25,327 nucleotides of DNA from a virus, in IMG/VR virus record IMGVR_UViG_3300046387_000007, positions 1-25,327 of that record, one strand, 5' to 3'. This document shows, piece after piece, positions 1,900 to 24,199 of this stretch; position 1 is the first letter of the stretch, and each line of letters starts with the position of its first letter. The notes under the pieces were generated by a model, which was given only the letters and a program-made list of their open reading frames with translations, was not told where the DNA came from and ran no database searches. A program made the translations under genes and the position numbers.

Positions 1900-3419
1900 T
1901 AGTAGACGTTGTATTAAAAACAGATAGCGCAGTTGATAATGCAGAAGATTTACAAGAATCATTACAAGATGTAAAAAAAGAAACTGATAATATTACTTCA
2001 AGTACTGAAGAAATGGGTACACAGCTTGATACAGTTACAGGCGGTGCTATTTCAAAATTTAAATCTTTTAAAGGCACTATAGGCGGTGTAATAGGTTCAT
2101 TCAAAACTTTAAAGGGTGCTATCATAGCAACAGGGATTGGCGCATTAATTATTGCGGTTACATCTTTAACTCAAGCATTCACAGCAAGCGAAGAAGGACA
2201 AAATCGTTTTGCTAAAATATTAAAACAGTTAGGCGTAGTAGCAGGCAATATTGGAGATATATTTTATAGTTTAGGTGATACTATATACAATGTATTTACA
2301 GGTAATTTTGAAGAAGCAAGTAAAGCATTTGAAACCTTTCAAGATAGAATAAAAAACTTTGGAGAAGAAACACAAAGAGAAATAGCGTTAGCAGGAGAAT
2401 TAGCTGATAAAATAGCAGATGCTAATAAACTTGAAAGAGAACTATTAATAGAAAGAGCGCAAACAAATGTAGAAATAAACAAACTTAAGACACAAGCAGC
2501 AGAGGTTGATAAATTTACAGCAGAACAACGTATATTCTTTTTAGAAAAAGCAGCAGCATTAGAAGATGAAATAACAAAAAAAGAAGTTGATTTAGCAAAA
2601 ACAAGGCGTGATATAAAAATAGAAGAAAATTCTTTAAGTGAATCAACAAAAGAAGATTTAGAAGAAGAAGCACAATTAATTGCAAATGTTATACAACTTG
2701 AGGAAGGTAGGTTAATTAGAAACAAAGAACTTTTAGGTGTAGCTGCAGGATTAAGAAAAGCAGAATCAGATAAATTAGCAGCGGAGCGTCAATCTGAAAT
2801 TGATGCTTTTCAAAAACAACAAAACACAATATCAGGTATTTTAAAAGATAGTATAGTTAAAAATAATGACTTTGCTATAAGTGCTGAAAAAGACGTAAAT
2901 AACAAATTAAAAGGGTTATTAGAAAAGAAAGCAACTGATGAACAAAAAGTAGAAGAACTATCAACTGAAGCAAAAATAAATTTAGCATCTAATGCTTTAG
3001 GAGATTTATCAACCATATTAGGAGAAGAAAGTAAAGCAGGAAAAGCAGCAGCTATAGCACAAACCACAATAGAAACATATAAAGGAGCTACAGCAGCTTA
3101 CTCTTCTTTAGCAGGTATTCCTATAGTTGGTCCTGCATTAGGGGGTCTTGCAGCGGCAGCAGCAGTTGCAGCAGGTTTGGCAAATATAAAAGCAATACAA
3201 GCGACAGGGGAACCTGTTCCTGCTCCATCAATACCAAGTGGAGGCAGAGGCGCACAACCTCCTGCTTTTAATATAGTAGGAGCATCTCCTGAAAATCAGT
3301 TAGCACAAACATTAGGAGAAAGGGAAGATAGACCTGTAAAAGCCTATGTAGTAGGAGACGATGTAACAAACCAACAAGCACTTGATAGAAAAATAACAGA
3401 AGGTGCATCAATAGGGTAA
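1887..3419 (+). CDS. Tail tape measure protein
   Basis: 510 residues. The tape measure sets tail length and passes through the tail tube during DNA ejection. Visible features: a charged N-terminal helix; a hydrophobic Gly/Ala/Ile segment at about 78-98 (AIIATGIGALIIAVTSL) typical of tape measure proteins; a long Glu/Lys/Ala-rich coiled-coil region at about 140-400; and a second Gly/Ala-rich hydrophobic stretch near 400-437 (GPALGGLAAAAAVAAGLANI), a C-terminal pattern I associate with Bacteroidota phage tape measures. It is short for the family; at roughly 1.5 angstrom per helical residue it would correspond to a tail of about 75 nm, if it is the only ruler. It overlaps the previous small gene by 13 bases. 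Its stop codon sits in the late promoter of the protease gene. Confidence 0.75.
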   Translation: MEKVVVDVVLKTDSAVDNAEDLQESLQDVKKETDNITSSTEEMGTQLDTVTGGAISKFKSFKGTIGGVIGSFKTLKGAIIATGIGALIIAVTSLTQAFTASEEGQNRFAKILKQLGVVAGNIGDIFYSLGDTIYNVFTGNFEEASKAFETFQDRIKNFGEETQREIALAGELADKIADANKLERELLIERAQTNVEINKLKTQAAEVDKFTAEQRIFFLEKAAALEDEITKKEVDLAKTRRDIKIEENSLSESTKEDLEEEAQLIANVIQLEEGRLIRNKELLGVAAGLRKAESDKLAAERQSEIDAFQKQQNTISGILKDSIVKNNDFAISAEKDVNNKLKGLLEKKATDEQKVEELSTEAKINLASNALGDLSTILGEESKAGKAAAIAQTTIETYKGATAAYSSLAGIPIVGPALGGLAAAAAVAAGLANIKAIQATGEPVPAPSIPSGGRGAQPPAFNIVGASPENQLAQTLGEREDRPVKAYVVGDDVTNQQALDRKITEGASIG

Positions 3420-3444
3420 CAAAAAATAAAAAATATTATTGTAT
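3418..3444 (+). promoter_or_regulatory. Putative phage late promoter 1 (protease unit)
   Basis: AAC at 3418-3420, then 18 bases, then TTGTAT at 3439-3444. The ATG of the protease gene follows at 3449, only four bases later, so a transcript starting at the usual distance would be leaderless. The same AAC-N18-TTGTAT arrangement precedes four other late genes in this window, with a variant at a fifth. Promoter function is inferred from this recurrence. Confidence 0.6.
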
Positions 3445-4447: not shown

Positions 4448-5076
4448 TGGCAAAGAATACAGCATACAGGGTTCACGTAGAAGATGTAGAACAATCAGTA
4501 GTAGACAATGTAAATATTGAAGATGGTGCAATGTTACGCACCGATGACTATTTATATATGGGTCATAACAATGAAAACGTAATTGTTTACCCACAAACAG
4601 GTGGTCTTAATTTAGGTTGGGCAAGGTATAATGATACTTTTTATGTAGGTTCAGACGATACTACTAAACTACTTTTAACAGATGGTGTTGAGGTTACTTT
4701 ACCCAATAACGCAGGAAGTGTTGTAAGAAGTCATCCAAGTATAGACTTTTACGATGTAGCAAACCAAAAGTTTGTAGGCTTAAATGAAAATGATGTTTAT
4801 GCGGTTACTGTTGTGTTTAAAAAGAGTGCAGCAAATGCTAATCAAACTCATTTAGATTTTAAACTTACAGGAGCAGATGATTACGATAGAATCAATATGG
4901 CTTTAGGGTTTTACAAAGGAAACGATGAAACACAAAACCAACATATAATGTTCCAATACTATTTAGATGCTAATGCTTTAGCAAATGGTCTTACTCCAAA
5001 GATTCAGTCAGATGGAGGAGATGCGAAGGTTTGGGATATTATCTTTTTTATATCAAGAACACAAAACGCAGGATAA
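4447..5076 (+). CDS. Hypothetical virion-region protein (209 aa)
   Basis: 209 residues, starting on the A shared with the protease stop (TAATG), so probably made by re-initiation. The composition is Asp/Asn/Thr rich and beta-like, without membrane segments or cysteines. Short beta hairpin-like stretches such as NLGWARYNDTFYVG and TLPNNAGSVVRSHPS suggest a surface or decoration protein. It sits between the prohead protease and the scaffold/capsid genes, so a head-associated role (decoration protein or head fibre) is the most economical guess. I recognise no named family. Confidence 0.6.
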   Translation: MAKNTAYRVHVEDVEQSVVDNVNIEDGAMLRTDDYLYMGHNNENVIVYPQTGGLNLGWARYNDTFYVGSDDTTKLLLTDGVEVTLPNNAGSVVRSHPSIDFYDVANQKFVGLNENDVYAVTVVFKKSAANANQTHLDFKLTGADDYDRINMALGFYKGNDETQNQHIMFQYYLDANALANGLTPKIQSDGGDAKVWDIIFFISRTQNAG

Positions 5077-5228: not shown

Positions 5229-5255
5229 AACAAACTTATTTATAATTTATTGTAT
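5229..5255 (+). promoter_or_regulatory. Putative phage late promoter 2 (scaffold/capsid unit)
   Basis: AAC at 5229-5231, an 18-base spacer, and TTGTAT at 5250-5255. The scaffold start codon is at 5273, so here a short leader of roughly ten bases is expected. It lies in a 50-base gap between the small Cys-rich gene and the scaffold gene and shares sequence and spacing with the other late elements. Confidence 0.6.
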
Positions 5256-5272
5256 AATTATATTCAATTTAT

Positions 5273-5878
5273 ATGAAAGCGACAGATATGTTAAACAAAG
5301 TAAAAGAAGTTCTTGGAGTGGAACTAAATGAAGAAACCCAAGAAGTAAAATTAGCACAGGCTACTTTGGAAAACGGAACTGTTATTGAAAGTGAAAATTT
5401 CGCTGCAGGAAGTGAAGTGTTCATAGTAACAGATGACGAAAAAGTAGCACTACCTGTAGGCGAATACTCTTTAGAAGATGGAGAAATGCTCAAAGTCGAA
5501 GAAGAAGGTATTATTGCATCTATAGGAGCAGCAGAAGAAGTTGAGGAAGCGGAAGCATCTGAAGAAGTAGAAGCTGCCGAAGAAGAAGAAATGGGATACG
5601 CAACTAAACAAGATTTAGCAGAGGTTAAAGAGATGATTGAAGAAATCAAATCTATGATTGAGCCTAAAGAAGAAATGAGTGAGGAAGCACCTGTTGAAGA
5701 AGTTAAGGAAGAACTTAATGAAGAGGTAAAAGAGGAACTATCAGCAGAAGAGCCTGTTGAGAAAGTAACTCACAATCCTGAATCTGAAACTAAAAAGAAT
5801 TTAAACCTATTTGCACAAAAAAGAAATATGACTACTGCAGATAAGGTAATGCAAAGAATTGCAAACATTAAAAAATAA
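5273..5878 (+). CDS. Acidic scaffold-like capsid assembly protein
   Basis: 201 residues, immediately upstream of the major capsid gene. After a small N-terminal beta-rich part (about 25-85, including ENFAAGSEVFIVTDDEKV) comes a very acidic, Glu-rich helical region (about 87-165: EEVEEAEASEEVEAAEEEE and similar), ending in a basic tail (residues 170-201, many Lys/Arg). An acidic coiled-coil middle with a basic C-terminal helix is the usual design of phage scaffolding proteins, in which the basic tail binds the capsid shell. The XkdF-type protease upstream would be expected to degrade it. Assignment rests on position and composition, since scaffold sequences are poorly conserved. Confidence 0.65.
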   Translation: MKATDMLNKVKEVLGVELNEETQEVKLAQATLENGTVIESENFAAGSEVFIVTDDEKVALPVGEYSLEDGEMLKVEEEGIIASIGAAEEVEEAEASEEVEAAEEEEMGYATKQDLAEVKEMIEEIKSMIEPKEEMSEEAPVEEVKEELNEEVKEELSAEEPVEKVTHNPESETKKNLNLFAQKRNMTTADKVMQRIANIKK

Positions 5879-6859: not shown

Positions 6860-6882
6860 TAAACAGATTAACTAACTTAAGA

Positions 6883-6921
6883 GGGTGGGTAAGCCGAGTT
6901 TGTGCCTACCTACCCTTTTTT
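6883..6921 (+). terminator. Rho-independent terminator after the capsid gene
   Basis: GGGTGGGTA (6883-6891) pairs with TACCTACCC (6907-6915) to give a nine base-pair stem with one G-T pair, followed by six T. It lies 24 bases after the capsid stop and should end or reduce transcription into the major tail gene. Confidence 0.85.
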
Positions 6922-6934
6922 AATATAAAAAACT

Positions 6935-7483: not shown

Positions 7484-7508
7484 ACCGAGTTTCATTTGAT
7501 TGATAAGA

Positions 7509-7535
7509 GGGTGGCTATATGCTGCCCTTTTTTTT
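7509..7535 (+). terminator. Rho-independent terminator after the major tail gene
   Basis: GGGTGGC (7509-7515) pairs with GCTGCCC (7521-7527) around a TATAT loop; seven pairs, two of them G-T, followed by eight T. Confidence 0.8.
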
Positions 7536-7546
7536 GCTTTATAAAT

Positions 7547-7573
7547 AACAAAATCCAAAAAGTTTTATTGTAT
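7547..7573 (+). promoter_or_regulatory. Putative phage late promoter 3 (portal unit)
   Basis: AAC at 7547-7549, an 18-base spacer, and TTGTAT at 7568-7573; the ATG follows at 7578. It sits right behind a terminator, where a new promoter is needed, which supports its function. The predicted transcript is leaderless or nearly so. Confidence 0.65.
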
Positions 7574-10150: not shown

Positions 10151-10248
10151 GATATAAACCAAAACAAGAGAATGTAAATAAGTTAAAACAGTATTTAGCT
10201 TATATAACAAAAACAAAAAAAAGTAATTGTATTAAATATGGCAAATAA
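10138..10248 (+). CDS. Small basic protein (36 aa), overlapping on both sides
   Basis: A 36-residue frame (begins MGTVRYKPKQENVNKLKQYL, ends in CIKYGK) starting 13 bases inside the connector gene and ending 11 bases inside the next gene. It is strongly basic and probably helical. The overlaps at both ends match the coupling style of the region, and it fills what would otherwise be an 87-base gap. Its 3' half also carries the late promoter element of the next unit, so conservation of the bases could have either cause. I recognise no family. Confidence 0.5.
   Translation: MGTVRYKPKQENVNKLKQYLAYITKTKKSNCIKYGK
10206..10232 (+). promoter_or_regulatory. Putative phage late promoter 4 (appendage/lysis unit)
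   Basis: AAC at 10206-10208, an 18-base spacer, and TTGTAT at 10227-10232, with the ATG at 10238. The whole element is inside the 3' end of the small 36-residue frame. Confidence 0.55.
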
Positions 10249-14104: not shown

Positions 14105-14344
14105 ATGGAAGATTTAACTATTAGAAAATTAGCAGAAAAAATTGCAAAAGATTTTCAATTATCTGTAAAAGATAGAACAGATGCAATATTAGAAATGGAT
14201 TCAATATCATATACTAATTTAGGTATAGACAGTACTAAAACAGAAAAAAATAAAGTTAAATCAGACAGTAAGTATTTATATAAATTAATAAAAGGCTTTA
14301 ATGAAACAGATGGTAAACTGTTATTAAACCATCTTGATTCGTAA
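14105..14344 (+). CDS. Hypothetical early protein (79 aa)
   Basis: 79 residues, Lys/Asp/Asn rich and helical (LTIRKLAEKIAKDFQLSV at the N-terminus; KSDSKYLYKLIKGFNETD near the end). Length and charge would fit a small DNA-binding or regulatory protein, but no clear helix-turn-helix score can be judged by eye. It is the first gene after the late block, behind an early-type promoter, five bases from the NinG-like gene. I do not recognise it. Confidence 0.6.
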   Translation: MEDLTIRKLAEKIAKDFQLSVKDRTDAILEMDSISYTNLGIDSTKTEKNKVKSDSKYLYKLIKGFNETDGKLLLNHLDS

Positions 14345-14348
14345 GACA

Positions 14349-14741
14349 ATGCCTAAAACTGCTAAAAAACCTACAAGGAGTAAACTCGTTAAAAAACTTG
14401 ATACGGTATTTAGTCAGTATATAAGATTAAGCAATGCGGACAACAATGGATATTGTACTTGTGTTACTTGCAATAAGACGTTCTTTTGGAAAGAAATCCA
14501 AGCAGGGCATTTTATGAGTAGAAAGCATTATTCTATACGTTGGGATGAAAGAAATGTTAAACCTCAATGTGTAGCTTGTAATGTATATAGAGCAGGTGAG
14601 CAATATAAGTATAGTTTATATCTTGGTAATAACTTGTCTAAAAAGCTACTTGAAGAAAGTAGGGAACTACGTAAATTTACAAATATCGAGTTAGAAGAAA
14701 TGATTGCTGACTATAGTGAACGAGTGAAAAAACTTACTTGA
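14349..14741 (+). CDS. ninG: NinG/Rap-family recombination nuclease
   Basis: 130 residues from the ATG at 14349; an upstream TTG is possible but the ATG directly after the preceding stop is the better start. It matches the lambda NinG (Rap) family: basic N-terminus, then YCTCVTCNK (C36, C38, C41), IQAGHFMSRK (H54), RWDERNVKPQCVACN (C74, C77). The Cys pairs and AGHF are the family's HNH-like, zinc-binding core. Rap is a structure-specific endonuclease acting on Holliday junctions and branched DNA. Together with the ERF protein and the RecE-like exonuclease it completes a phage recombination set. A terminator follows the gene. Confidence 0.85.
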   Translation: MPKTAKKPTRSKLVKKLDTVFSQYIRLSNADNNGYCTCVTCNKTFFWKEIQAGHFMSRKHYSIRWDERNVKPQCVACNVYRAGEQYKYSLYLGNNLSKKLLEESRELRKFTNIELEEMIADYSERVKKLT

Positions 14742-14766
14742 TAATTCTTGTATATTGTTCTTTGTT

Positions 14767-14800
14767 AAAAGGGGGTGTAATTAATTTTGCATCCTCTTTT
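14767..14800 (+). terminator. Rho-independent terminator after the ninG-like gene
   Basis: AAAAGGGGGTGTAA (14767-14780) can pair with TTGCATCCTCTTTT (14787-14800) in a 14-pair stem with several G-T pairs, ending in TTTT. Its A-tract makes it potentially bidirectional. The last three T form part of the -33 box of the following promoter. Confidence 0.75.
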
Positions 14801-14828
14801 GTTTTATAAACATTTTTTTGTAACTTTA
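14798..14828 (+). promoter_or_regulatory. Host-type promoter for the ERF unit
   Basis: TTTG at 14798-14801, a 19-base spacer, and TAACTTTA at 14821-14828: the Bacteroidota form TTTG-N19-TAnnTTTG with one mismatch. The ATG at 14834 is five bases downstream, so the mRNA should be leaderless or nearly so. Confidence 0.75.
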
Positions 14829-14833
14829 CCGAT

Positions 14834-14953
14834 ATGGAACAATTTACAAAAGCAGAACTCTATGGTAAGACTTTAGAACTGCAATACGAATTAGAAAAGA
14901 AAAATGAAATGCTTGAACAAGCAAAAAAACAATTAATTTCAATCACAAAGTAA
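14834..14953 (+). CDS. Small coiled-coil protein (39 aa)
   Basis: 39 residues, almost entirely one charged helix (ELYGKTLELQYELEKKNEML, then EQAKKQLI) with heptad-like Leu spacing. Its TAA overlaps the ATG of the ERF gene by one base (TAATG). It starts five bases after a strong promoter box. Function unknown; its coupling to the annealing protein suggests an accessory or a leader that sets translation of ERF. Confidence 0.6.
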   Translation: MEQFTKAELYGKTLELQYELEKKNEMLEQAKKQLISITK

Positions 14954-15465
14954 TGAACAAAGAAACAAACATTCACAAGAAGATGTTCTTATTACAACAA
15001 GAAATAGGAGCAATTAGTAAGGACGCAAGTAATCCTTTTTACAAGTCAAAGTATTTTGATATTAACTCACTAATTAATCAACTAAACCCTTTGTTAAAAA
15101 AACACAAAGTATTACTCTCACAACCTACAAGAGGTAAGAAAGTATTTACTATTTTAAAGTGTGTAGAATCAGAAACAAGTGATATGGCTTGGTTAAAATT
15201 ACCTGAAATAAATGACCCACAAAAGTTAGGTTCTGCTATTACATATTATAGAAGATATACTTTAGCTTCACTTCTTGGTTTACAAGCTGTAGATGATGAT
15301 GCAAATGTAGCAAGTGGTGTAACTGAAGATAAGAAATGGTTAAACCAAAACACACCTGAATTTAGTAAAGCAATAGAATTTATAAAAGGTGGAGGTAGCG
15401 TAGAAGCTATTAAAAGCAAGTACAAGGTATCTAAAAAAGTACAGGATGAACTTGCAAAATTGTAG
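14953..15465 (+). CDS. erf: ERF-family single-strand annealing protein
   Basis: 170 residues. The ERF signature is clear: an N-terminal IHKKMFLLQQEIGAISKDAS and FYKSKYFDINSLINQLNPLL, and the core KLGSAITYYRRYTLASLLGL followed by QAVDDDAN (residues 91-118). ERF proteins form rings on ssDNA and anneal complementary strands, serving phage recombination and concatemer or circle formation. It is shorter than P22 Erf (about 200 residues). The last third (128-170) is a Lys-rich helical tail. The OB-fold protein directly downstream and the RecE-like exonuclease at 19423 are expected partners. Confidence 0.9.
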   Translation: MNKETNIHKKMFLLQQEIGAISKDASNPFYKSKYFDINSLINQLNPLLKKHKVLLSQPTRGKKVFTILKCVESETSDMAWLKLPEINDPQKLGSAITYYRRYTLASLLGLQAVDDDANVASGVTEDKKWLNQNTPEFSKAIEFIKGGGSVEAIKSKYKVSKKVQDELAKL

Positions 15466-15522
15466 AATAAAAAAAGTATATTACACAACTAAATATAATA
15501 ATCAATCAATAAAAGTAGAAAT

Positions 15523-15855
15523 ATGGAAATTACAGGAAACATCAAACTTATTCAAGACGTTGAGTCAGGAACTTCTAAAGCAGGTAACGAGTGGTCAAAA
15601 AGAACTATCGTTGTAACAACTGCCGAGAAATACCCACAAGATTTAGCTATTGACTTTATGGGAGAATCTATAAAAGGAATTAACAACTTTCAAGTAGGCA
15701 ACCCTGTTACGGTTAGTATAAATCTACGAGGCAAAGAGTACAACGGTAAATACTACACAAGTATAAATGGTTGGAAGATTGCAGCAACAATAGGAAACGT
15801 TAACAACACTGACCAAAACCCTGCAAGAGAAGAAACAGCAGATTTACCATTTTAA
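15523..15855 (+). CDS. DUF3127-type OB-fold protein, SSB-like
   Basis: 110 residues. The whole protein follows the DUF3127 pattern known from Bacteroidota: MEITGNIKLIQDVESGTS, then EWSKRTIVVTTAEKYPQDLA, then GNPVTVSINLRGKEYNGKYY and a closing WKI. It ends in ADLPF, which resembles the acidic hydrophobic SSB C-terminal tip (DDLPF) that recruits replication proteins. It most likely binds single-stranded DNA as the phage SSB equivalent. Its place next to ERF and before the helicase supports this. A terminator lies eight bases after its stop. High ending similarity to SSB is seen directly; binding is inferred. Confidence 0.8.
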   Translation: MEITGNIKLIQDVESGTSKAGNEWSKRTIVVTTAEKYPQDLAIDFMGESIKGINNFQVGNPVTVSINLRGKEYNGKYYTSINGWKIAATIGNVNNTDQNPAREETADLPF

Positions 15856-15862
15856 TTTAAGA

Positions 15863-15885
15863 GGGGGTTTTTACCCCCTTTTTTT
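15863..15885 (+). terminator. Rho-independent terminator after the SSB-like gene
   Basis: GGGGG (15863-15867) pairs with CCCCC (15874-15878) across a TTTTTA loop, extended by A-T pairs, and is followed by seven T. It ends nine bases before the next start codon, leaving almost no room for a separate promoter. Confidence 0.85.
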
Positions 15886-15893
15886 ATACCTTT

Positions 15894-16040
15894 ATGAGAA
15901 AACTAAAAGATGGAGAAGAAATGCCTATTGATTTTTGGAACTACAAAGTTAATCCAATCGTAGGATATTACATAGAAAAAGAAGAAGCACAAACAATAGG
16001 AATGGAAAAAAAGTATAATAGATTACCACAAAGTATATGA
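15894..16040 (+). CDS. Small hypothetical early protein (48 aa)
   Basis: 48 residues (MRKLKDGEEMPIDFWNYKVN ... LPQSI), ending ATGA over the helicase start. It starts nine bases after a terminator. A TACCTTTA box (15887-15894) resembles a -7 element but touches the ATG and lacks a -33 match; if it is active, the in-frame ATG at 15921 may be the true start. Alternatively this operon is reached by read-through. Function unknown; its coupling to the helicase suggests a replication accessory. Confidence 0.55.
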   Translation: MRKLKDGEEMPIDFWNYKVNPIVGYYIEKEEAQTIGMEKKYNRLPQSI

Positions 16041-16948
16041 TAGCACAAGCAAAGAAACTACAAGACAAGATATTAGATATAAAGTACGGAAGAGTAAAGG
16101 AAGGTTTAAAGATTGGCGTTCCTGAAATAGATGAACATATTAGATTTAAAAAGAATCTCTTGATAGCAATAGGACACGCAAACGTAGGTAAGACTACAAC
16201 CCTAATTTATTTTTACGTATTATGGGCAAAGCTACACGGATTGAAGTTTGTTGTTTGGTCAAGTGAAAACAGTCCTGAATCTATATTAAGAAAGATTATA
16301 GAGTTTAGAATGGGTAAACCAATACAGGAAGCAACTGATGAATTAATTAGTAAAGCAGTAGAATGGTCAAACGAACATTTTAAGATTATAGATGTAGAAG
16401 ATATGTACACTTACAAGAGTTTATTAAAAGAAGCGCAACAAATAAAAGATGCTTGGAACTATGATGGTTTATTAATAGACCCTTATAATTCTTTAGCAAA
16501 GGACGCTTCTATATTAAAGATGGTAGGGAACGCACACGAATACGATTACCAAGTATTGACAGAGTTAAGAATATTTACTAAAAAGAATAACGTACAAGTT
16601 TGTGTAAATGCACACGGTGTAACCTCTGCTTTAAGACAAGTACATCATTCAGGACACGAATACGAAGGTTTGACAAGACCATTAGCTATGAGTGATGCAG
16701 AAGGCGGTTCTAAAATAAGTTCACGTGCTGACGATATTTGGTGTATTCATAGATACGTACAGCATCCTACTGATTGGATGTACAGTCATATTCACGTTTT
16801 AAAAATAAAAGAAAACGAAACAGGTTCAAGACCTACTACATTCGAACAACCTATACAATTACGTATGAAAGTTAATAATGTAGGATTTGAATATATGGGA
16901 AGAGATTTAATACACAATGAAAATAAAATACAAAAATTAAACGTATGA
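16037..16948 (+). CDS. DnaB/RecA-fold replicative helicase-like ATPase
   Basis: 303 residues. Walker A is GHANVGKT (46-53); the Walker B-like strand LLIDPYNS (145-152) has D148; a third strand QVCVNAHGV (187-195) matches the sensor region of DnaB/RecA-type ATPases. The position of the FVVWSSENSP segment (71-80) agrees with the DnaB C-terminal domain. It lacks the DnaB N-terminal domain and any primase part, as in many small phage helicases. It would unwind the fork or serve as a loader-independent hexamer. No primase or polymerase is seen in the window, so replication would lean on host enzymes or on genes outside. It overlaps both neighbours by four bases. Confidence 0.8.
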   Translation: MIAQAKKLQDKILDIKYGRVKEGLKIGVPEIDEHIRFKKNLLIAIGHANVGKTTTLIYFYVLWAKLHGLKFVVWSSENSPESILRKIIEFRMGKPIQEATDELISKAVEWSNEHFKIIDVEDMYTYKSLLKEAQQIKDAWNYDGLLIDPYNSLAKDASILKMVGNAHEYDYQVLTELRIFTKKNNVQVCVNAHGVTSALRQVHHSGHEYEGLTRPLAMSDAEGGSKISSRADDIWCIHRYVQHPTDWMYSHIHVLKIKENETGSRPTTFEQPIQLRMKVNNVGFEYMGRDLIHNENKIQKLNV

Positions 16949-17169
16949 TAGTAATAGGACTTTTATTGGTAGTAGCATTTACTTTTTTGATTATAGGTCA
17001 ATTTAAGAGTGCAGAGATTATAATAAGTCCTATTAAAGGAATAATGTTTGGCTTTTTATATCACAAAGAACAATACGAACAAGAAGATGAAATTACCCTG
17101 CAATGTTTGTTGGGTATAATTAGTATTAATGTGATATGGATAAACCAACTGAATGGCTCGCAAAAGTAG
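16945..17169 (+). CDS. Small membrane protein (74 aa)
   Basis: 74 residues, ATGA overlap with the helicase stop. A strong membrane segment at the N-terminus (IVIGLLLVVAFTFLIIG, 2-18) and a second likely one at about 52-66 (LQCLLGIISINVIWI); the loop between carries an acidic part (EQYEQEDE). Its 3' end overlaps the sigma-factor gene by 34 bases. Early membrane proteins of this size often act on the host envelope or exclude other phages, but nothing here proves that. Confidence 0.6.
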   Translation: MIVIGLLLVVAFTFLIIGQFKSAEIIISPIKGIMFGFLYHKEQYEQEDEITLQCLLGIISINVIWINQLNGSQK

Positions 17170-17684
17170 CTGAAAGGCACAAAGAATGGGTAGCCATTGT
17201 TAAAAGTTTTGGAGAGTACGATTACTGTGAGGACTTGGTACAGGAAATGTATCTAACAATTTATAAGTATGCGAACGAAGATAAAGTTATTAGAAATGGT
17301 GTCGTTAGTCGTGGGTATTTGTATTTTACTCTTCGTTCTCTCTATTACCAATATTATAATAGTAAAAGAAAAATTACTAAAGTTTCTATCGATGATGATG
17401 AATTTACCATCCAAATTCCACACGATTCGCAAATGGATGAACAAGTAGCATTTCATAAAATCTGTACTATGATAGATGAACACATAGAAGGTTGGAGATG
17501 GTACGAAAAGAAATTGTTTTCTCTTTACAGAGATTCAGATTTAAGTATAAGAGGTATAGCAGCAGAAACTAATATTAGTTGGGTAAGTATATTTAATTCA
17601 TTAAAACACGCTAAAGAAGAAATAAAAGATAAGTTTAAAGAAGATTGGGAAGATTATAAAAATAAAGATTATGACAGAATTTAA
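17136..17684 (+). CDS. ECF-like RNA polymerase sigma factor
   Basis: 182 residues, in the size range of ECF (group 4) sigma factors. Region 2: YCEDLVQEMYLTIYKYAN (30-47) matches the core-binding helix (typical form 'DLVQETFLRLW'), followed by an aromatic, basic helix RGYLYFTLRSLYYQYYNSKRK (59-79, quoted here in part) in the place of the -10-binding helices. An acidic linker (84-103) joins to region 4: KKLFSLYRDSDLSIRGIAAE, then TNISWVSIFNSLKHAKEEI, a helix-turn-helix of the sigma-4 type (about 125-165). No anti-sigma factor gene is seen. It lies in the early operon. It is a natural candidate reader of the AAC-N18-TTGTAT elements in front of the late genes. Confidence 0.75.
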   Translation: MDKPTEWLAKVAERHKEWVAIVKSFGEYDYCEDLVQEMYLTIYKYANEDKVIRNGVVSRGYLYFTLRSLYYQYYNSKRKITKVSIDDDEFTIQIPHDSQMDEQVAFHKICTMIDEHIEGWRWYEKKLFSLYRDSDLSIRGIAAETNISWVSIFNSLKHAKEEIKDKFKEDWEDYKNKDYDRI

Positions 17685-18087
17685 AGGAGACAAACGCACT
17701 CGTGAGTATCGAGAATGGAAGGCTAAACACGCACAAGCGAGTGAAGGACTTGGAGACACAGTTGAGAAAATAACTAAAGCAACAGGTATAAAGAAAGCAG
17801 TAGATACTGTATTTCAAAAGTTAGAAAAAAGCTGTGGATGTGAAGAAAGAAAAGAAAAATTAAATCAAGTGTTTAGATACAAGAAACCTGAATGTTTAAC
17901 AGAGCAGGAGTTTGATTTAATTAAAATGGCAGTAGACACTAAAAAGAATAAGTGGACGCCCGAAGAGCAAGAAACGTATAAAAACATATACGAAAGGATA
18001 TTTAAAACTAAAGTAGAATGTACTCCTTGTAGTTTTGGTAAGGTAGTATGGAAAGACTTACAAGCAGTTTATAATCAGTATTTATGA
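17671..18087 (+). CDS. Hypothetical Cys-containing early protein (138 aa)
   Basis: 138 residues, overlapping the sigma-factor gene by 14 bases and the next by four. The N-terminus is basic and helical (EGLGDTVEKITKATGIKKAV, 25-44). Cysteines occur as SCGCEERKEKLN (C55, C57), C75, and VECTPCSF (C117, C120), which could bind one zinc. I have an impression that this layout recurs in Bacteroidota phages without an assigned function. Its tight coupling to the sigma factor makes a transcription-linked role possible but unproven. Confidence 0.6.
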   Translation: MTEFKGDKRTREYREWKAKHAQASEGLGDTVEKITKATGIKKAVDTVFQKLEKSCGCEERKEKLNQVFRYKKPECLTEQEFDLIKMAVDTKKNKWTPEEQETYKNIYERIFKTKVECTPCSFGKVVWKDLQAVYNQYL

Positions 18088-18476
18088 GTTTAATAAGAAA
18101 TAGAAACCAAGTTAAACAAGTAATAGACTTTACAGGTGTGCAAAATGGTAAGATGCACCCAAGTGATATAGACTTTGTTTTAGAATTTGACAACAAAGTA
18201 CTGATACTTGGAGAAGTAAAGCGTAAGTACAATAAGATACCTACAGGACAGAAGTTAATACTTGAAAGAATCATAGACAGATGGGGAGAAGGTGGTATAG
18301 CTTTAAAGGTAGAACATCAATATCAAGATGACAACACTAACATACCATTAGAAGAGTGTACTGTAACTGCAAGATACTATAAAGGAGATTGGACTTATTT
18401 TACAGAACCAAAAAATTTTATAACTTACATCAATAAAATAGGAGAACACTTTAATTGCACTAAATGTAAATTCTAA
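18084..18476 (+). CDS. PD-(D/E)XK nuclease-like protein
   Basis: 130 residues. HPSDIDFVLEFDNKVLILGE (25-44) followed by VKRK gives the D-(x)n-E-x-K pattern of the PD-(D/E)XK fold: D28 or D30, then E44-x-K46, with a helix containing Q56 (GQKLILERIID) in the expected place after the last strand. Enzymes of this fold include Holliday-junction resolvases and phage nicking or recombination nucleases. The C-terminus ends with CTKC. It could be a resolvase acting with NinG or an early DNA-processing nuclease. Fold level is fairly sure; substrate unknown. Confidence 0.65.
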   Translation: MSLIRNRNQVKQVIDFTGVQNGKMHPSDIDFVLEFDNKVLILGEVKRKYNKIPTGQKLILERIIDRWGEGGIALKVEHQYQDDNTNIPLEECTVTARYYKGDWTYFTEPKNFITYINKIGEHFNCTKCKF

Positions 18477-18790
18477 TGAACAAGAAACTGAACAATATAA
18501 AAGAAGGAGAATACTACGCTAATTTTAATTTAGTTGGAGAGTATATCGTAAAATCAAGAAAAGCAAAACCTGAAAACAAAGCTATTAATGAAATGTATTT
18601 TTGTTGGCAGGATGTAGGATTCTATGTACACAATCTTATAACAAACGAAAGGTTATACGAACAGTCATTAAGTGAATACCGTAGTGATAAGATACGTGCA
18701 GTAGAAAGAGCAAGACTTGCAGAAAAAAAGATAGAAGAGTTAGAACAAGAGATAGAAAAACTTCAAACTAAATTAGATGTTGGTATTTAA
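18476..18790 (+). CDS. Hypothetical protein with C-terminal coiled coil (104 aa)
   Basis: 104 residues, TAATG-coupled to the nuclease-like gene. The first 60 residues are mixed (EGEYYANFNLVGEYIVKSRK, then FCWQDVGFYVHNLITN); the last 35 form a charged coiled coil (AEKKIEELEQEIEKLQTKLD). No membrane segment. I do not recognise a family. The coiled coil suggests an oligomer or partner binding. Confidence 0.6.
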   Translation: MNKKLNNIKEGEYYANFNLVGEYIVKSRKAKPENKAINEMYFCWQDVGFYVHNLITNERLYEQSLSEYRSDKIRAVERARLAEKKIEELEQEIEKLQTKLDVGI

Positions 18791-18866
18791 GATTATACTT
18801 GGATATGGTGTGTTGAGGTTGATGGAAGCAATGATAGTAAAAACATATAAAGATAGATATGAGTGA
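18777..18866 (+). CDS. Possible very small hydrophobic protein (29 aa)
   Basis: A 29-residue frame from the ATG at 18777 to a TGA at 18864-18866, overlapping both neighbours (14 and 8 bases) and filling a 68-base gap in a tightly packed operon. Sequence begins MLVFKIILGYGVLRLMEA; the first 20 residues could form a membrane helix. The evidence is only position and overlap style, so it may be chance. Confidence 0.35.
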   Translation: MLVFKIILGYGVLRLMEAMIVKTYKDRYE

Positions 18867-19122
18867 TAGTTTAAGAAAGTGGATACAGATGCAAGAAGAA
18901 GGTTGGACAGCAGATTCAACAGGATATAATCATTTACCTAAAGACCCAATAGTAGAAAGCGTAATACAAAAGATGAGAGCAAGAAGTAGGGATGGTATAA
19001 CTAAATACGGAACTACCCTACACGATTCTCCTGATGGTTTTTATAAGTGGGTACAACACGCACAGGAAGAAGCTATGGATTTCATACTGTATTTAGAGAA
19101 GATTAAAAAACTAAACAAATGA
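18859..19122 (+). CDS. MazG-like all-alpha NTP pyrophosphohydrolase
   Basis: 87 residues. The core RDGITKYGTTLHDSPDGF followed by YKWVQHAQEEAMDFILYLEK (44-81 overall) matches small phage MazG-like proteins: the QEEAMD (69-74) carries the E-E-x-x-D metal-binding arrangement. Such enzymes hydrolyse (d)NTPs or alarmones to tune nucleotide pools. It is short and has only one of the two helical metal-binding motifs, as usual for this type, so activity as a dimer or tetramer is expected. It overlaps the next small gene by four bases. The family call is moderate. Confidence 0.6.
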   Translation: MSDSLRKWIQMQEEGWTADSTGYNHLPKDPIVESVIQKMRARSRDGITKYGTTLHDSPDGFYKWVQHAQEEAMDFILYLEKIKKLNK

Positions 19123-19247
19123 AAGAATCTACATTGGTAAAGATGCAACACGATTTAAAACTTACACAACAAGCGTTGGTAGTTGCACTAAACAGATTAG
19201 AACAATTAGAAAAAAAAGTATTCCCAAAAGAGGAAGATGTTAAATAA
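19119..19247 (+). CDS. Small coiled-coil protein (42 aa)
   Basis: 42 residues, ATGA overlap with the MazG-like gene. It is one charged helix with Leu/Val repeats (LKLTQQALVVALNRLEQLEK), a pattern of a short coiled coil. No family recognised. An A+T-rich gap follows (19248-19273) with a TATATTTA that weakly resembles a -7 box. Confidence 0.55.
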   Translation: MKESTLVKMQHDLKLTQQALVVALNRLEQLEKKVFPKEEDVK

Positions 19248-19273
19248 TTGTTTATATTTACAAAAACAATATT

Positions 19274-19426
19274 ATGACATACGAAGAACTTTATTACAGG
19301 TCTATGACAGACCACGAACTACAAAGAGTTATAAATACTCACGAATTTCTTGATGGTTACGTTGACAGGTGTCAGCAAGAACTGAACAGAAGAAAAGAAG
19401 AACAAACAGAAATAACAAGATTATGA
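19274..19426 (+). CDS. Small hypothetical protein (50 aa)
   Basis: 50 residues (MTYEELYYRSMTDHELQRVI ... NRRKEEQTEITRL), helical and charged. Its TGA overlaps the ATG of the RecE-like exonuclease (ATGA), and the exonuclease frame is open upstream only as a shadow of this gene. The coupling suggests co-production with the exonuclease. No known family. Confidence 0.6.
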   Translation: MTYEELYYRSMTDHELQRVINTHEFLDGYVDRCQQELNRRKEEQTEITRL

Positions 19427-20190
19427 TAACACTATTAAACGGAGAACATTGGGGTAAAGAAGAAATCCTCACACAGATGTATGATGACGAATTTTACTAT
19501 GGTCATCTTGGTAAACACGCATTAAGTAGTTCATCTCTTAAAACACTCTTAAAGAGTCCAAAGACTTACAGAAACATTCTAAAGTATGGAGACCCTAACG
19601 GAGATAGTCCTGCATTAGCAGCAGGTAAGTTAGTACATTGGATGATACTTGAACCTCACAAAGTAGACAAGTTACATTTTGTAGATGCTTCCACAAAGAA
19701 CACTAACAAGTACAAAGATGCTAAAGCAAAGTATGGAGAGGTGTTTCTTGCAAAAGAAAGAAGTGCAGCAGAAAGATTAGCAGATGCAGTATTAAGAAAT
19801 GAAGCAGCACTCAAACTATTAACTAAATCAGAGTTTGAAGTACCTGCAATAGAAATGATAGAAGGATTAGCTTTTAGAGGTAAAGCAGATATAATTAAAG
19901 GAAATACCTTAATTGATTTAAAGACCTCTGCTGACCTTAATACCTTTCGGTATAGTGCAGACAAGTACGGATATGATTTACAAGCGTGGTTGTACTTAAA
20001 ATTGTTTAAGAAGGATAAGTTTACCTTTTTAGTAATTGACAAAGCAAGTACAGATATAGGAATCTTTGATGTAAGTGATGAGTTTTTAGCAAGAGGCGAA
20101 AACAAATTCAGACAAGCAGTAGATAACTATAAGTACTTCTTTCAAGAAGAAAACGATTTAGACCAATATGTAATGAGAGGAATATTATAA
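19423..20190 (+). CDS. RecE/YqaJ-like PDDEXK exonuclease
   Basis: 255 residues from the ATG at 19423, chosen because it forms ATGA with the gene before. It fits the PDDEXK_12/RecE C-terminal nuclease family (DUF3799): ALSSSSLKTLLKSPKTYRNI (33-52), AGKLVHWMILEP (67-78, H72), then FRGKADII (D156), NTLIDLKTSA (D165-x-K167) and YGYDLQAWLYL (Q187), which is the order H, D, D-x-K, Q of the active site. It would digest one strand of dsDNA ends to expose ssDNA for the ERF annealing protein, as RecE does for RecT. It ends the long early operon; a fresh host-type promoter follows. Confidence 0.85.
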   Translation: MITLLNGEHWGKEEILTQMYDDEFYYGHLGKHALSSSSLKTLLKSPKTYRNILKYGDPNGDSPALAAGKLVHWMILEPHKVDKLHFVDASTKNTNKYKDAKAKYGEVFLAKERSAAERLADAVLRNEAALKLLTKSEFEVPAIEMIEGLAFRGKADIIKGNTLIDLKTSADLNTFRYSADKYGYDLQAWLYLKLFKKDKFTFLVIDKASTDIGIFDVSDEFLARGENKFRQAVDNYKYFFQEENDLDQYVMRGIL

Positions 20191-20195
20191 ATTTA

Positions 20196-20226
20196 TTTGG
20201 TAGTTAATAAAAAGTTTATATCTTTG
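20196..20226 (+). promoter_or_regulatory. Host-type promoter for the ParB/methyltransferase unit
   Basis: TTTG at 20196-20199, a 19-base spacer, and TATCTTTG at 20219-20226: an exact match to TTTG-N19-TAnnTTTG. The 31 bases are repeated at 24169-24199 with one mismatch. A leader of about 50 bases precedes the ATG at 20287. Confidence 0.85.
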
Positions 20227-20286
20227 GAAAAAATAGGGGAAGATGAAAACCTAATAGAGTAAGCACAAAGAATAAATACAATAATT

Positions 20287-21069
20287 ATGAATAATCAAAT
20301 TAAAATAGCAAGAGTTGAAATGATACCTATTAGTAAAATAAAGTTTATTAAAGGTAATAGGGGTACTTATGAATCACACATACAAAAGATGTATGATTTA
20401 ATAGACACTTATGGATTTGCAGATACGATTAAAGTAATTCCTGAAGATAATTTTTATTGGGCTGCAGAGGGACAACATAGGGTTTCTGCTTTAAAATTAC
20501 ACGGAGTTAAAGAAGTTCCTTGTAGTATAATAGATTGGTTAGATGATGATGTAGAAGAAATCCAAAGATTTATTATTTCTCTTAATGCTCACAATAAGGC
20601 TTGGGATTTAATAGATAGTATAAAATCTTGGGCAGATTTAAAGAAAGATAATTACGAATATCTTTTAGATAAAGTCAGAAATTACAATAACGTGCTTTCT
20701 GTGGGTTCTATAGTGAGTTGTTTTGATGGAGTAAGGAGGCAACATAATTCAGTAAAGAAAGGAAAATTAAAAATATTAGATAAAGATTTTTCTGAAACAT
20801 TATTAGACGCAATGAAAAATTTTGTTGTATCTAATGGAAAGAAAAAAGCAAATTCTAAAATAACTTATTGTGCAGCTGAATTAATTTATAATAGTGGAAA
20901 TGAAATAAGATATCAAGTATTACAAGCGTTTTTGTTAGCTGCTAAAACACATCTGAATACATCAGAAGAGCCATTACCTGATGGAGACAAAGCGTTTGAC
21001 TATTGGTTTGAAGAGGTGGTAATGAAAACATATTATCCTATAATAAGACAAAATATAATGTCTAAATGA
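20287..21069 (+). CDS. ParB/Srx-fold protein
   Basis: 260 residues. The N-terminal 80 residues have the ParB/sulfiredoxin fold: VEMIPISKIKFIKGNRG, a helix SHIQKMYDLIDTYGF, then FYWAAEGQHRVSALKLHGVK with GQHR (62-65), the nucleotide-binding motif of ParB-like domains. The remainder is a helical domain (about 90-255) with Lys-rich patches, likely DNA-binding. Phage ParB-like proteins act as CTPase clamps, nucleases or, next to methyltransferases, DNA modification factors. Its stop overlaps the methyltransferase start (ATGA), so a shared function in DNA modification or protection is suggested. No ParA partner is present, which argues against partitioning. Confidence 0.7.
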   Translation: MNNQIKIARVEMIPISKIKFIKGNRGTYESHIQKMYDLIDTYGFADTIKVIPEDNFYWAAEGQHRVSALKLHGVKEVPCSIIDWLDDDVEEIQRFIISLNAHNKAWDLIDSIKSWADLKKDNYEYLLDKVRNYNNVLSVGSIVSCFDGVRRQHNSVKKGKLKILDKDFSETLLDAMKNFVVSNGKKKANSKITYCAAELIYNSGNEIRYQVLQAFLLAAKTHLNTSEEPLPDGDKAFDYWFEEVVMKTYYPIIRQNIMSK

Positions 21070-21713
21070 AGATACTAAACTTATACGCTTGTTTAGGAGG
21101 CAACAGATATAAATGGGATGAAGTAACTGATGTTGAGGTTACAGCTGTAGAATATGACCCTGAACTTGCAAAACTATACCAAGAAAGATTTCCAAATGAT
21201 AAAGTAATAGTAGCAGATGCACATCAATACTTGTTAGACCATTACAAAGAATTTGATTTTATTTGGACTTCTCCTCCTTGTCCAACTCATAGTAGGGTAA
21301 GGATTAGTCAAAAAAATAGTCAAAGTTTTATACCTAAATATCCTGATATGAGATTATATGAGGAAGTAATATTTCTTGAAAATCATTTTAATGGGAAGTA
21401 TGTTGTAGAAAATGTAATACCCTATTATGAGCCATTAATACCTGCACAGAAAAGACATAGGCACTTATATTGGACAAACTTCTTATTACCTAATATTTTA
21501 AGTAATAGAAAACAACCACAGATAAGCAATGGAGTTAATGAAGTTAAAAAATTATGTGAATTTCACTATTATGATTTTTATAGATATAAAGGAAAACAAA
21601 GAATTGATAAGATAGCAAGAAACCTTGTAGACTATGAAGCGGGAAAAACAATACTTGAAACTGCATTAGGTATTATAAAAAAACAAAACGAGAATCAATT
21701 AGAAATTTTTTAA
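21066..21713 (+). CDS. C5 cytosine DNA methyltransferase, short form
   Basis: 215 residues. Motif I: LNLYACLGGNRYKWD (4-18); motif IV with the catalytic Cys: TSPPCPTHS (C72); motif VI: VVENV (113-117); motif VIII-like: AQKRHRHLYWTNF (127-139); a motif X-like end: RNLVDYEAGKTILETAL. It is much shorter than bacterial C5 enzymes (300-400 residues), mainly by a small target-recognition region (about 140-185). It is likely to methylate cytosine in phage DNA and so block restriction. Four-base coupling to the ParB-like gene points to a joint module. The key residues are intact, so it should be active. Confidence 0.8.
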   Translation: MKILNLYACLGGNRYKWDEVTDVEVTAVEYDPELAKLYQERFPNDKVIVADAHQYLLDHYKEFDFIWTSPPCPTHSRVRISQKNSQSFIPKYPDMRLYEEVIFLENHFNGKYVVENVIPYYEPLIPAQKRHRHLYWTNFLLPNILSNRKQPQISNGVNEVKKLCEFHYYDFYRYKGKQRIDKIARNLVDYEAGKTILETALGIIKKQNENQLEIF

Positions 21714-22037
21714 ATGAATAAAGAGATAGCCAAAGAACTTGATTTGTTTGCAAATAACGTTTGCAGTAGATATTCTCAAAAAGATAGAGAGGGTAATTAC
21801 AATAAAGAAACATTTCAAATAGCAGAGATAATACCAACAAGCGACCATACAGCTACTGTTATATTTAAAAAGAACACAGGTAAACTTGCAGCTTTTTTAT
21901 TTTATTATATAAATAGAGGAAAGTCAAAAGGATGGAAGTATCTTGTTCCTACTGATTCACACATAACAGGATTCAGAGCATTTGAATTTTATAAATTACA
22001 AGTGGAAAGAAGTAACTATAAAAAGAATTTTGAATAA
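21714..22037 (+). CDS. Hypothetical protein (107 aa)
   Basis: 107 residues, beginning on the base after the methyltransferase stop. Mixed alpha/beta with a basic, aromatic C-terminal half (LAAFLFYYINRGKSKGWKYL, then FRAFEFYKLQVERSNYKKNF). The central TSDHTATVIFKKNTGK looks like a beta hairpin. Basic surface and neighbours make nucleic-acid binding plausible. I know no family. Confidence 0.55.
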   Translation: MNKEIAKELDLFANNVCSRYSQKDREGNYNKETFQIAEIIPTSDHTATVIFKKNTGKLAAFLFYYINRGKSKGWKYLVPTDSHITGFRAFEFYKLQVERSNYKKNFE

Positions 22038-22251
22038 AGATATAATAGAAGAATTTTACAATCTCGCTTTATTGGATATAGCTAACGGAAGAAGTATATC
22101 AGAACTTGAAGAGGCGTTAGACTTATACGAGACAGCAGAAGAGTTTGAAGCCTGTGCAGGAATACTAAAAGCAATACACGAATCAGGATTTATGACAATA
22201 AAAGAAATAATTAATAAATTAGAAGATGACGAACACACAAAGAATAATTAA
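22030..22251 (+). CDS. Small acidic helical protein (73 aa)
   Basis: 73 residues from a TTG at 22030, which overlaps the previous stop by eight bases; no ATG lies near, and a longer TTG start at 21982 would overlap more. The protein is acidic and helical (DIIEEFYNLALLDIANGRSI, then EEALDLYETAEEFEACAGIL). Its end overlaps the DnaA-like gene by 26 bases. No family recognised. The non-ATG start lowers certainty. Confidence 0.5.
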   Translation: MNKDIIEEFYNLALLDIANGRSISELEEALDLYETAEEFEACAGILKAIHESGFMTIKEIINKLEDDEHTKNN

Positions 22252-22681
22252 AGGAATAGTAGAAGATTACTATAAAATAGATATTACTACAAACACAAGA
22301 AAAAGACCTTACATAGAAGCAAGAGCAATATATTATAAACTATTAAGAGACCATACACATTATTCTTTACACGCTATAGGTGCAACAATGGAAAAAGACC
22401 ATTCAACTGTATTGTACTTTACAAGAAAGGCTAAAGATTGGCTTTTATATGATAAAGATTTTGAAAATGATTTTCTTACATTAAACAATAGACTTGTTAA
22501 GGCTAAAGAATTAAATCCTGATGGTTTTAAAAGGGCAGAAACATTAGAAGGCTTTTGGGAAGGTCAGTATAGTAAATTAAACAAACAATACAAAGAACTT
22601 GAAATAAGATATAGTTACTTGCAAGGACAATTAAAGAAAGTAAAACCTGAATTAGCAGAACAGTTTGAATTAACAGATTAA
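22226..22681 (+). CDS. DnaA domain IV-like DNA-binding protein
   Basis: 151 residues. Residues 25-72 match the DnaA C-terminal (domain IV) helix-turn-helix: RKRPYIEARAIYYKLLRDHT, a turn, then YSLHAIGATMEKDHSTVLYF, in which DHSTVL (58-63) corresponds to the DnaA signature 'DHTTV' that contacts the DnaA box. No AAA+ ATPase domain is present; the C-terminal part is a coiled coil (about 115-145). It may mark the phage origin, act as a regulator, or compete with host DnaA for origin sites. It is the last gene before the terminase unit, and its stop codon region contains the late promoter for that unit. Confidence 0.7.
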   Translation: MTNTQRIIKGIVEDYYKIDITTNTRKRPYIEARAIYYKLLRDHTHYSLHAIGATMEKDHSTVLYFTRKAKDWLLYDKDFENDFLTLNNRLVKAKELNPDGFKRAETLEGFWEGQYSKLNKQYKELEIRYSYLQGQLKKVKPELAEQFELTD

Positions 22682-22698
22682 TAAACATTTTATTGTAT
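22672..22698 (+). promoter_or_regulatory. Putative phage late promoter 5 (terminase unit)
   Basis: AAC at 22672-22674, an 18-base spacer, and TTGTAT at 22693-22698; the ATG of the small terminase gene is at 22723, giving a short leader of about 18 bases. AAC lies in the last codons of the DnaA-like gene. Spacing equals the other late elements. Confidence 0.6.
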
Positions 22699-22722
22699 AA
22701 TTGAATAAACAATCTTTTTCAA

Positions 22723-24168: not shown

Positions 24169-24199
24169 TTTGGTAGTTAAAAAAAAGTTTATATCTTTG
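24169..24199 (+). promoter_or_regulatory. Host-type promoter for the two-gene cassette
   Basis: TTTG at 24169-24172, a 19-base spacer, and TATCTTTG at 24192-24199; 30 of 31 bases equal the promoter at 20196-20226. The -33 box starts directly after the terminase stop (TAA 24166-24168). A leader of about 25 bases reaches the ATG at 24231. Confidence 0.85.

Follow-up and report, generated by a model that had tools for sequence, protein, structure and literature searches.

The window analysed here, a 25,327-nucleotide virus record from IMG/VR, very probably carries its own switch for late transcription, in which an ECF-type sigma factor from the early/middle block redirects the host core RNA polymerase to five late promoters. 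The evidence that the phage sigma factor turns on the late genes is purely comparative, with no transcripts, biochemistry or genetics behind it, although it strongly suggests this outcome. A preliminary description had proposed early synthesis of a sigma factor followed by late promoters of the ECF type, and comparison supports this proposal well, with transcription itself remaining inferred; each of the refuting conditions named there that sequence can address was decided in its favour. In the mechanism we envisage, host sigma-A-type promoters (the candidates at 20197 and 24170, and others) would be used to read the early block of the phage, which is probably virulent and has an inferred Bacteroidota host, and a two-domain ECF-type sigma factor would be made within this early/middle block. 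The accumulated protein would bind the host core enzyme and redirect it, with sigma4 reading the AAC -35 and sigma2 reading the TTGTAT -10, and the terminase, head-protease, scaffold/capsid, portal and tail-fibre/lysis units would thereby be started, many of the late mRNAs beginning at or beside the AUG. In related phages, the sigma factor and all of its late promoters would have changed specificity together. Computation shows the sigma homology, the promoter element, and the co-occurrence and co-variation of the two. Core binding, direct recognition and timing are inferred; the block is termed early on the basis of gene content, namely the NinG, Erf, SSB, helicase and ExoVIII neighbours.

Judged by sequence comparison and a predicted fold, the product of the sigma gene is a real ECF-type (sigma2 plus sigma4) factor. 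Sigma region 2 and a region 4 helix-turn-helix had been recognised previously in this 182-residue protein, and both hold up, as the computed profile matches span the two regions and fold matches agree. The similarity to ECF families is weak but consistent. Profile searches match TIGR02985 over residues 26-166 (E 3.5e-8) and TIGR02937 (sigma70-ECF) over residues 28-166 (E 5.7e-6), PHROG 1740 'RNA polymerase sigma factor' is matched at E 9e-5, and both TIGR models are matched by all 30 members of the homologue alignment, in which M1 and the reading frame are also kept throughout (30/30). Pfam sigma70_r2 and r4_2 are found only under their curated cut-offs, and the scores for TIGR02937 (26.1 bits, cut-off 42.9) and TIGR02985 (33.8 bits, cut-off 126.4) fall short as well. 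We therefore file the protein as ECF-type or ECF-like and do not place it in a numbered ECF group.

The domain layout comprises sigma2 (residues ~1-76), a linker (~77-103) and sigma4 (~104-170), with residues 33-45 reading DLVQEMYLTIYKY and the helix-turn-helix located around residues 134-158. This arrangement meets the architectural definition of ECF (group IV) factors, which calls for about 180 residues, a short linker connecting sigma2 with sigma4, and the absence of sigma1.1 and sigma3. An AlphaFold model was built from the 30-member homologue alignment (mean pLDDT 74.8, pTM 0.43, linker 77-99 unreliable). Its leading Foldseek matches in the PDB are all sigma factors, with ECF members first (Mtb sigma-L, E. 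coli sigma-E, AlgU, sigma-H), and none came down to E 0.001. Using VIA-align, model residues 104-172 were superposed on 2h27_D, which is E. coli sigma-E region 4 with -35 DNA (Z 9.0, rmsd 1.6 A, 69 residues), and residues 1-75 on 1h3l_A, which is SigR region 2 (Z 8.4, rmsd 3.3 A, 72 residues). Whole-chain TM-scores are low because the domain arrangement is unknown. Antibody chains returned by phmmer against PDB sequences are an artefact of a chance stretch and were ignored.

Table 1. Coordinates of the features of the window discussed in the text
Feature	Position	Strand	Basis or remark
Late promoter; AAC -35 3418-3420, N18, TTGTAT -10 3439-3444	3418..3444	+	Matrix, 32.1 bits
Late promoter ahead of scaffold-like gene 5273 and capsid-type gene 5897	5229..5255	+	29.7 bits
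Late promoter 4 nt 5' of ATG 7578, ahead of portal gene 7922	7547..7573	+	30.4 bits
Late promoter ahead of 10238 (tail fibre / lysis block)	10206..10232	+	25.3 bits
Late promoter ahead of 22723 (small-terminase position) and TerL 22999	22672..22698	+	26.0 bits
Early/replication-recombination block	14105..22681	+	NinG, Erf, SSB, helicase, sigma, ExoVIII, ParB-like, methylase-like, DnaA-C domain protein
Phage-encoded ECF-type sigma factor, 182 aa, ATG start	17136..17684	+	Profile searches, homologue alignment, fold model
138-aa ORF with CGC cysteine motif, 14 nt overlap with sigma stop	17671..18087	+	Beside sigma in every long relative
Host sigma-A-like promoter candidate (Bacteroidota TTG-N-TAnnTTTG)	20197..20226	+	Pattern
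Host sigma-A-like promoter candidate, right after TerL	24170..24199	+	Pattern

The late element takes the form AACAAA-N12-TTATTGTAT, in which exactly 18 nt separate AAC from TTGTAT, and each of its five plus-strand copies lies ahead of a late gene (Table 1). All five contain the AAC that had been described as invariant. The copy at 3418 ends 4 nt 5' of the ATG at 3449, where a head maturation protease-like gene begins, and a terminator-like stem (7505-7531) directly precedes the copy at 7547. A count of AAC-N18-TTGTAW restricted to the window proved too weak (5 found, 1.7 expected, a count equalled by 3 of 100 shuffles). This count was replaced by a matrix of 30 distinct sites taken from relatives whose sigma factors are at most ~77% identical, and both strands were scanned blind. 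The matrix trained on relatives returns exactly the five window sites, at 25.3-32.1 bits, with the next score at 11.1 bits and the maximum among 60 simulated sequences at 15.6 bits. An AAC -35 followed by a -10 about 16-19 nt downstream is expected of ECF promoters, and this layout is found in the window, in relatives of its promoter class and, as AAC-N17-CGTTA, in the cultured phage P12024S, although recognition by the sigma factor is inferred. A scan for E. coli-type sigma-70 promoters was uninformative (50 found, 60 expected).

Relatives sharing the TTGT type of -10 with the window (the G class, 22 contigs and 582 kb with the window included) were searched for AAC-N16-TATTGTWH. The pattern occurs 81 times in the sense orientation, with 66 of these upstream of ORFs, compared with 6 antisense occurrences and 3 for the reversed control. 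Moreover, the spacing in AAC-N18-TTGTWH forms one sharp peak, with 74 matches versus no more than 12 at every other spacing. The start codon, by contrast, follows the end of TTGTWH at varying distances (4-5, 17 and 23-30 nt). A fixed AAC-TTGT spacing combined with a variable start-codon distance is what a -35/-10 pair shows, and not a translation signal. The gap is 4-5 nt at 38 of the 66 sites, and transcription from phiEco32 sigma promoters begins 6-8 bp past the element (PMC8948821). From these two values we infer that many of the late mRNAs should have no leader, or almost none.

Among 46 related contigs, chosen by sigma, terminase or capsid similarity, every one with the early module (NinG/Erf/helicase) encodes a homologue of sigma, the most distant at 32% identity, and the sigma-less relatives are fragments without that module. 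The late motif was not seen without the sigma gene in these related contigs. A late sigma factor should co-occur with a promoter motif shared by late genes across relatives, and this is what we find, in agreement with the co-occurrence that the preliminary description had named as a check. No homologue of the window sigma factor was found in 50,697 sequenced phages, yet the protein is matched in 104 IMG/VR contigs and its clades in hundreds. Hence, the late-gene switch of a common but uncultured group becomes predictable from sequence. No close relative was found in the bacterial genome collection, which leaves no prophage and no host assignment. The group is a large one of uncultured, mostly aquatic tailed phages whose hosts, by inference, are probably Bacteroidota. 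We found no report of the sigma family or its promoters in open-licence papers, although one may exist elsewhere.

Ahead of the ATG of orthologous genes, the element stays in register but has a -10 that varies with sigma clade. Across relatives, AAC and spacing are mostly constant while the -10 core switches among TTGT, TTAT, TTTT and more distant types. Because the AAC hardly varies and the -10 does, the latter is the most informative part of the element. TTGTAT-like sequences accompany sigma factors close to that of the window, TTATAT is found in G022, G026 and G028, TTATT-type sequences in G039, G041 and G044, and TTTTTA in G043, G046, G047 and G049, with AGTTA-like types in more distant sigma factors. 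Counts of TTGT/TTAT/TTTT upstream of ORFs lie near the diagonal, with 66/6/1 for the G class, 1/9/4 for the A class and 0/0/12 for the T class. The terminase promoter is ~5 kb away from the sigma gene, and the third -10 base of the TerS promoter at 75 loci (46 G, 11 A, 18 T) tracks sigma clade. Some terminase promoters are near-identical save for this base, as in L072 (TTAACAATTAGTTAGTTTTTTTATTGTATAG) versus G028 (TTAACAATTAGTTAGTTTTTTTATTATATAG). Reading of the late sites by an unchanged host sigma factor, an outcome that would have refuted the original proposal, is disfavoured by this switching of motif type with sigma clade. Within the protein, A-class sigma factors all have L25 together with K, Q or E at position 59 (the lone A-type L360 included), in place of the F25 and R59 seen in the G and T classes (numbered as in the window protein). 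The link between these residues and the base rests on only one to three independent contrasts, too few for significance, and it is thus a lead and not proof. An independent-pairs test of F25/R59 had too few pairs.

Since co-variation is partly phylogeny, other genes were used as controls. When 15 gene families were compared for how well they separate the promoter classes, the AUC for sigma (0.995) was the joint highest with that for portal (0.995); lower values include those for TerL (0.92), the 17671 protein (0.90), the DnaA-C protein (0.81), MCP (0.71) and SSB (0.58). Portal thus separates the classes as well as sigma does, and much of the co-variation must be attributed to shared ancestry. 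Other comparisons set sigma apart from its neighbours. In partial Mantel tests over 71 loci, the promoter label correlates with sigma given TerL at 0.73, versus 0.23 with TerL given sigma; for 36 dereplicated loci these values are 0.61 versus 0.27. T-class sigma factors form one clade (support 100) in which TTTTTA is universal even though the terminases come from two unrelated families; the G043 terminase is sister to the terminase of the A-class contigs G039 and G041. Contigs that differ in promoter type may diverge by as little as 6% in g6935, 10% in MCP or TerL, 11% in the 3449 protein and 15% in portal, whereas their sigma factors never diverge by less than 43%. For example, G010 and G022 have portals 85% and 3449 proteins 89% identical, but their sigma factors are 51% different and their promoters are TTGTAT versus TTATAT. 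Bare parsimony for the TerS promoter requires 4 changes on the sigma and TerL trees alike; the changes forced by supported branches (1/1/1 versus 2/2/3, respectively) distinguish the two trees, as do the terminase swaps.

In these comparisons, promoter type follows the resident sigma factor despite recombinational exchange of neighbouring terminase, capsid or portal genes. There are exceptions, such as the g10238 promoter, which is TTATAT in G008 and G010 of the TTGT class, and no element was seen at a few TerS loci. The far classes B and C were assigned by eye from aligned upstream regions. They rest on these regions only, because counts of AAC-N15..17-AGTTA over whole contigs are not clearly above control. 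Module exchange is extensive in L262 (G022), L248 (G010) and L290 (G042). The capsids of G010 and G042 are 90% identical, and their sigma factors are 38% identical.

It is conceivable that a host sigma factor, either the housekeeping sigma-A or an ECF or other alternative one, reads the late elements while the phage protein serves some other role, such as host takeover. Bacteroidota are rich in ECF sigma factors and many ECF promoters carry AAC, and the best profile of the phage protein is itself a Bacteroidota ECF subfamily. However, the late element lacks the host TAnnTTTG -10, its -10 core tracks the phage sigma factor and not the terminase, capsid or portal genes, and contigs with the early module are never without the sigma gene. 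We consider host recognition very unlikely for these reasons. Fainter still is the prospect that another early phage protein recognises the element and that sigma only co-segregates with it. The 17671 protein always adjoins sigma, and the 22226 protein carries a DNA-binding DnaA-C domain (Pfam 4e-11), but both separate the promoter classes less well than sigma does (AUC 0.90 and 0.81 versus 0.995), and pairs of them only 21-27% divergent differ in promoter type. Moreover, bipartite geometry and an abutting -10 are of the type seen in promoters for sigma holoenzymes.

This geometry also bears on the suggestion, which we find scarcely credible, that the element is a translation-initiation or RNA feature ahead of AT-rich start codons instead of a promoter. 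Such a feature would fit the many sites at which TTGTAT stands 4-5 nt 5' of the start codon, but the start-codon distance varies whereas the 18-nt AAC-TTGT spacing is fixed. Furthermore, the elements occur only ahead of transcription units, in one case right after a terminator-like stem. Recognition of the late promoters by the phage sigma factor remains the explanation that we prefer.

Phage sigma factors that direct late (and middle) transcription via the host core are exemplified by phiEco32 gp36 and phage 7-11 gp47 (PMC8948821), and T4 gp55 and SPO1 gp28/gp34 are phage sigma factors essential for middle or late genes (PMC9429907). In addition, phiEco32 gp36 matches the ECF superfamily profile TIGR02937 (4.1e-5), as the window sigma factor does. 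The earlier suggestion of a new control scheme was thus overstated with regard to phage-encoded late sigma factors in general, which are established. Whereas gp36 reads tAATGTAtA, its distant 7-11 homologue reads GTAAtg-(16)-aCTA at equivalent genome positions (PMC8948821), and this complete difference in promoter consensus resembles the switches described above. Unlike the window, phiEco32 (77.5 kb) and 7-11 are enterobacterial phages. The gp36 protein has no region 4 (PMC8948821) and its promoter is a single element, whereas the window sigma factor has both sigma2 and sigma4, and the AAC...TTGTAT promoter consists of two elements at a fixed 18-nt spacing. No specific similarity between the window sigma family and gp36 was detected with hhalign (probability 6%, 21 columns only). 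The T4 and SPO1 factors likewise belong to sigma lineages that differ from the window family, as do their promoters, though no sequence comparison was made. The best-scoring cellular families are Bacteroidota ECF sigma factors (TIGR02985 Sig70_bacteroi1, NF058625), which, like the window protein, consist of sigma2 and sigma4 only; in contrast to them, the window protein falls far under the family cut-offs and has no recognisable membrane anti-sigma factor adjoining it.

The nearest cultured phages by capsid are the Nonlabens flavophages P12024S/L (Inhavirus), whose MCP is 31% identical and which share the order capsid-portal-tail-lysis-recombination-sigma-terminase. P12024S gp33 is annotated as sigma-70 region 2 (PF04542, 1.4e-5) and shows ~28% identity to the window sigma factor in a profile alignment. 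AAC-N17-CGTTA precedes late genes of P12024S and is present at six gene-start positions (147, 2999, 5380, 21249, 25169 and 26770), with an N16 copy at 23930, and thus differs from the window element in -10 and spacing. No paper describing P12024S late promoters was found. These likenesses suggest that the arrangement of sigma factor and late promoters is old in flavophage-like genomes. What is new here is the full two-domain ECF-type sigma factor, its two-element promoter, its occurrence in Bacteroidota-type phages and the several co-varying specificities.

A broader interpretation can be offered only tentatively, and as a whole we are slightly more inclined to doubt than to accept it. The sigma factor and its approximately five scattered late promoters might form a co-evolving lock and key that has undergone several -10 switches (TTGT, TTAT, TTTT and the distant AGTTA or CGTTA), with F25/R59 changing at G-to-A switches and with most late mRNAs of the window class leaderless or nearly so. 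Mobile structural and terminase genes would then have to take on the promoter type of the resident sigma factor, which would hence act as a regulatory compatibility barrier to recombination. The matched series of sigma factors and promoters, including near-identical promoters one -10 base apart, offers a test of how ECF sigma2 chooses -10 bases and of how a regulon scattered across a genome changes specificity. It is also a possible set of orthogonal sigma/promoter pairs for Bacteroidota, and P12024S is a possible laboratory system for this arrangement.

Several neighbouring genes and sites deserve mention. The 17671 protein has no informative family match and is a candidate anti-sigma factor or polymerase co-factor, neither of which is excluded. 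Just upstream of the terminase promoter, the 22226-22681 protein, with its DnaA C-terminal DNA-binding domain, is a possible replication initiator or regulator. The host-type promoter candidates at 20197 and 24170 are near-identical (TTGGTAGTTAAtAAAAAGTTTATATCTTTG), and relative G022 has this sequence too, at 12091. A scan for the host sigma-A pattern TTG-N-TAnnTTTG, which served as a constancy control, gave sites in several classes; the relaxed pattern was not above control genome-wide, and these sites are suggestive only. Directly 3' of the terminase promoter is a conserved dyad-like stretch, TTGAATAAACAA (22693-22722), with TTGATTAATCAA or ATCATTAATGAT in relatives. It was not seen at the other late promoters and could be an operator, a packaging site or an RNA element.

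Within the structural region, a strong stem at 6870-6925, GGGTGGGTAAGCC...GCCTACCTACCC-TTTTTT, lies between the capsid-type gene and gene 6935 and is kept in nearly all relatives. It is probably a partial terminator or an mRNA-stabilising hairpin. Gene 6935 has no late promoter of its own. Close relatives have unrelated genes in place of the one at 4447-5076, between the protease-like and scaffold genes, yet retain the promoter beyond it, so this position can be regarded as cargo or a variable slot. The protease-like protein (3449-4444) matches the N-terminal half of PHROG 24921 and the scaffold-like one (5273-5875) its C-terminal half, and hence an inserted gene and a late promoter separate protease from scaffold here.
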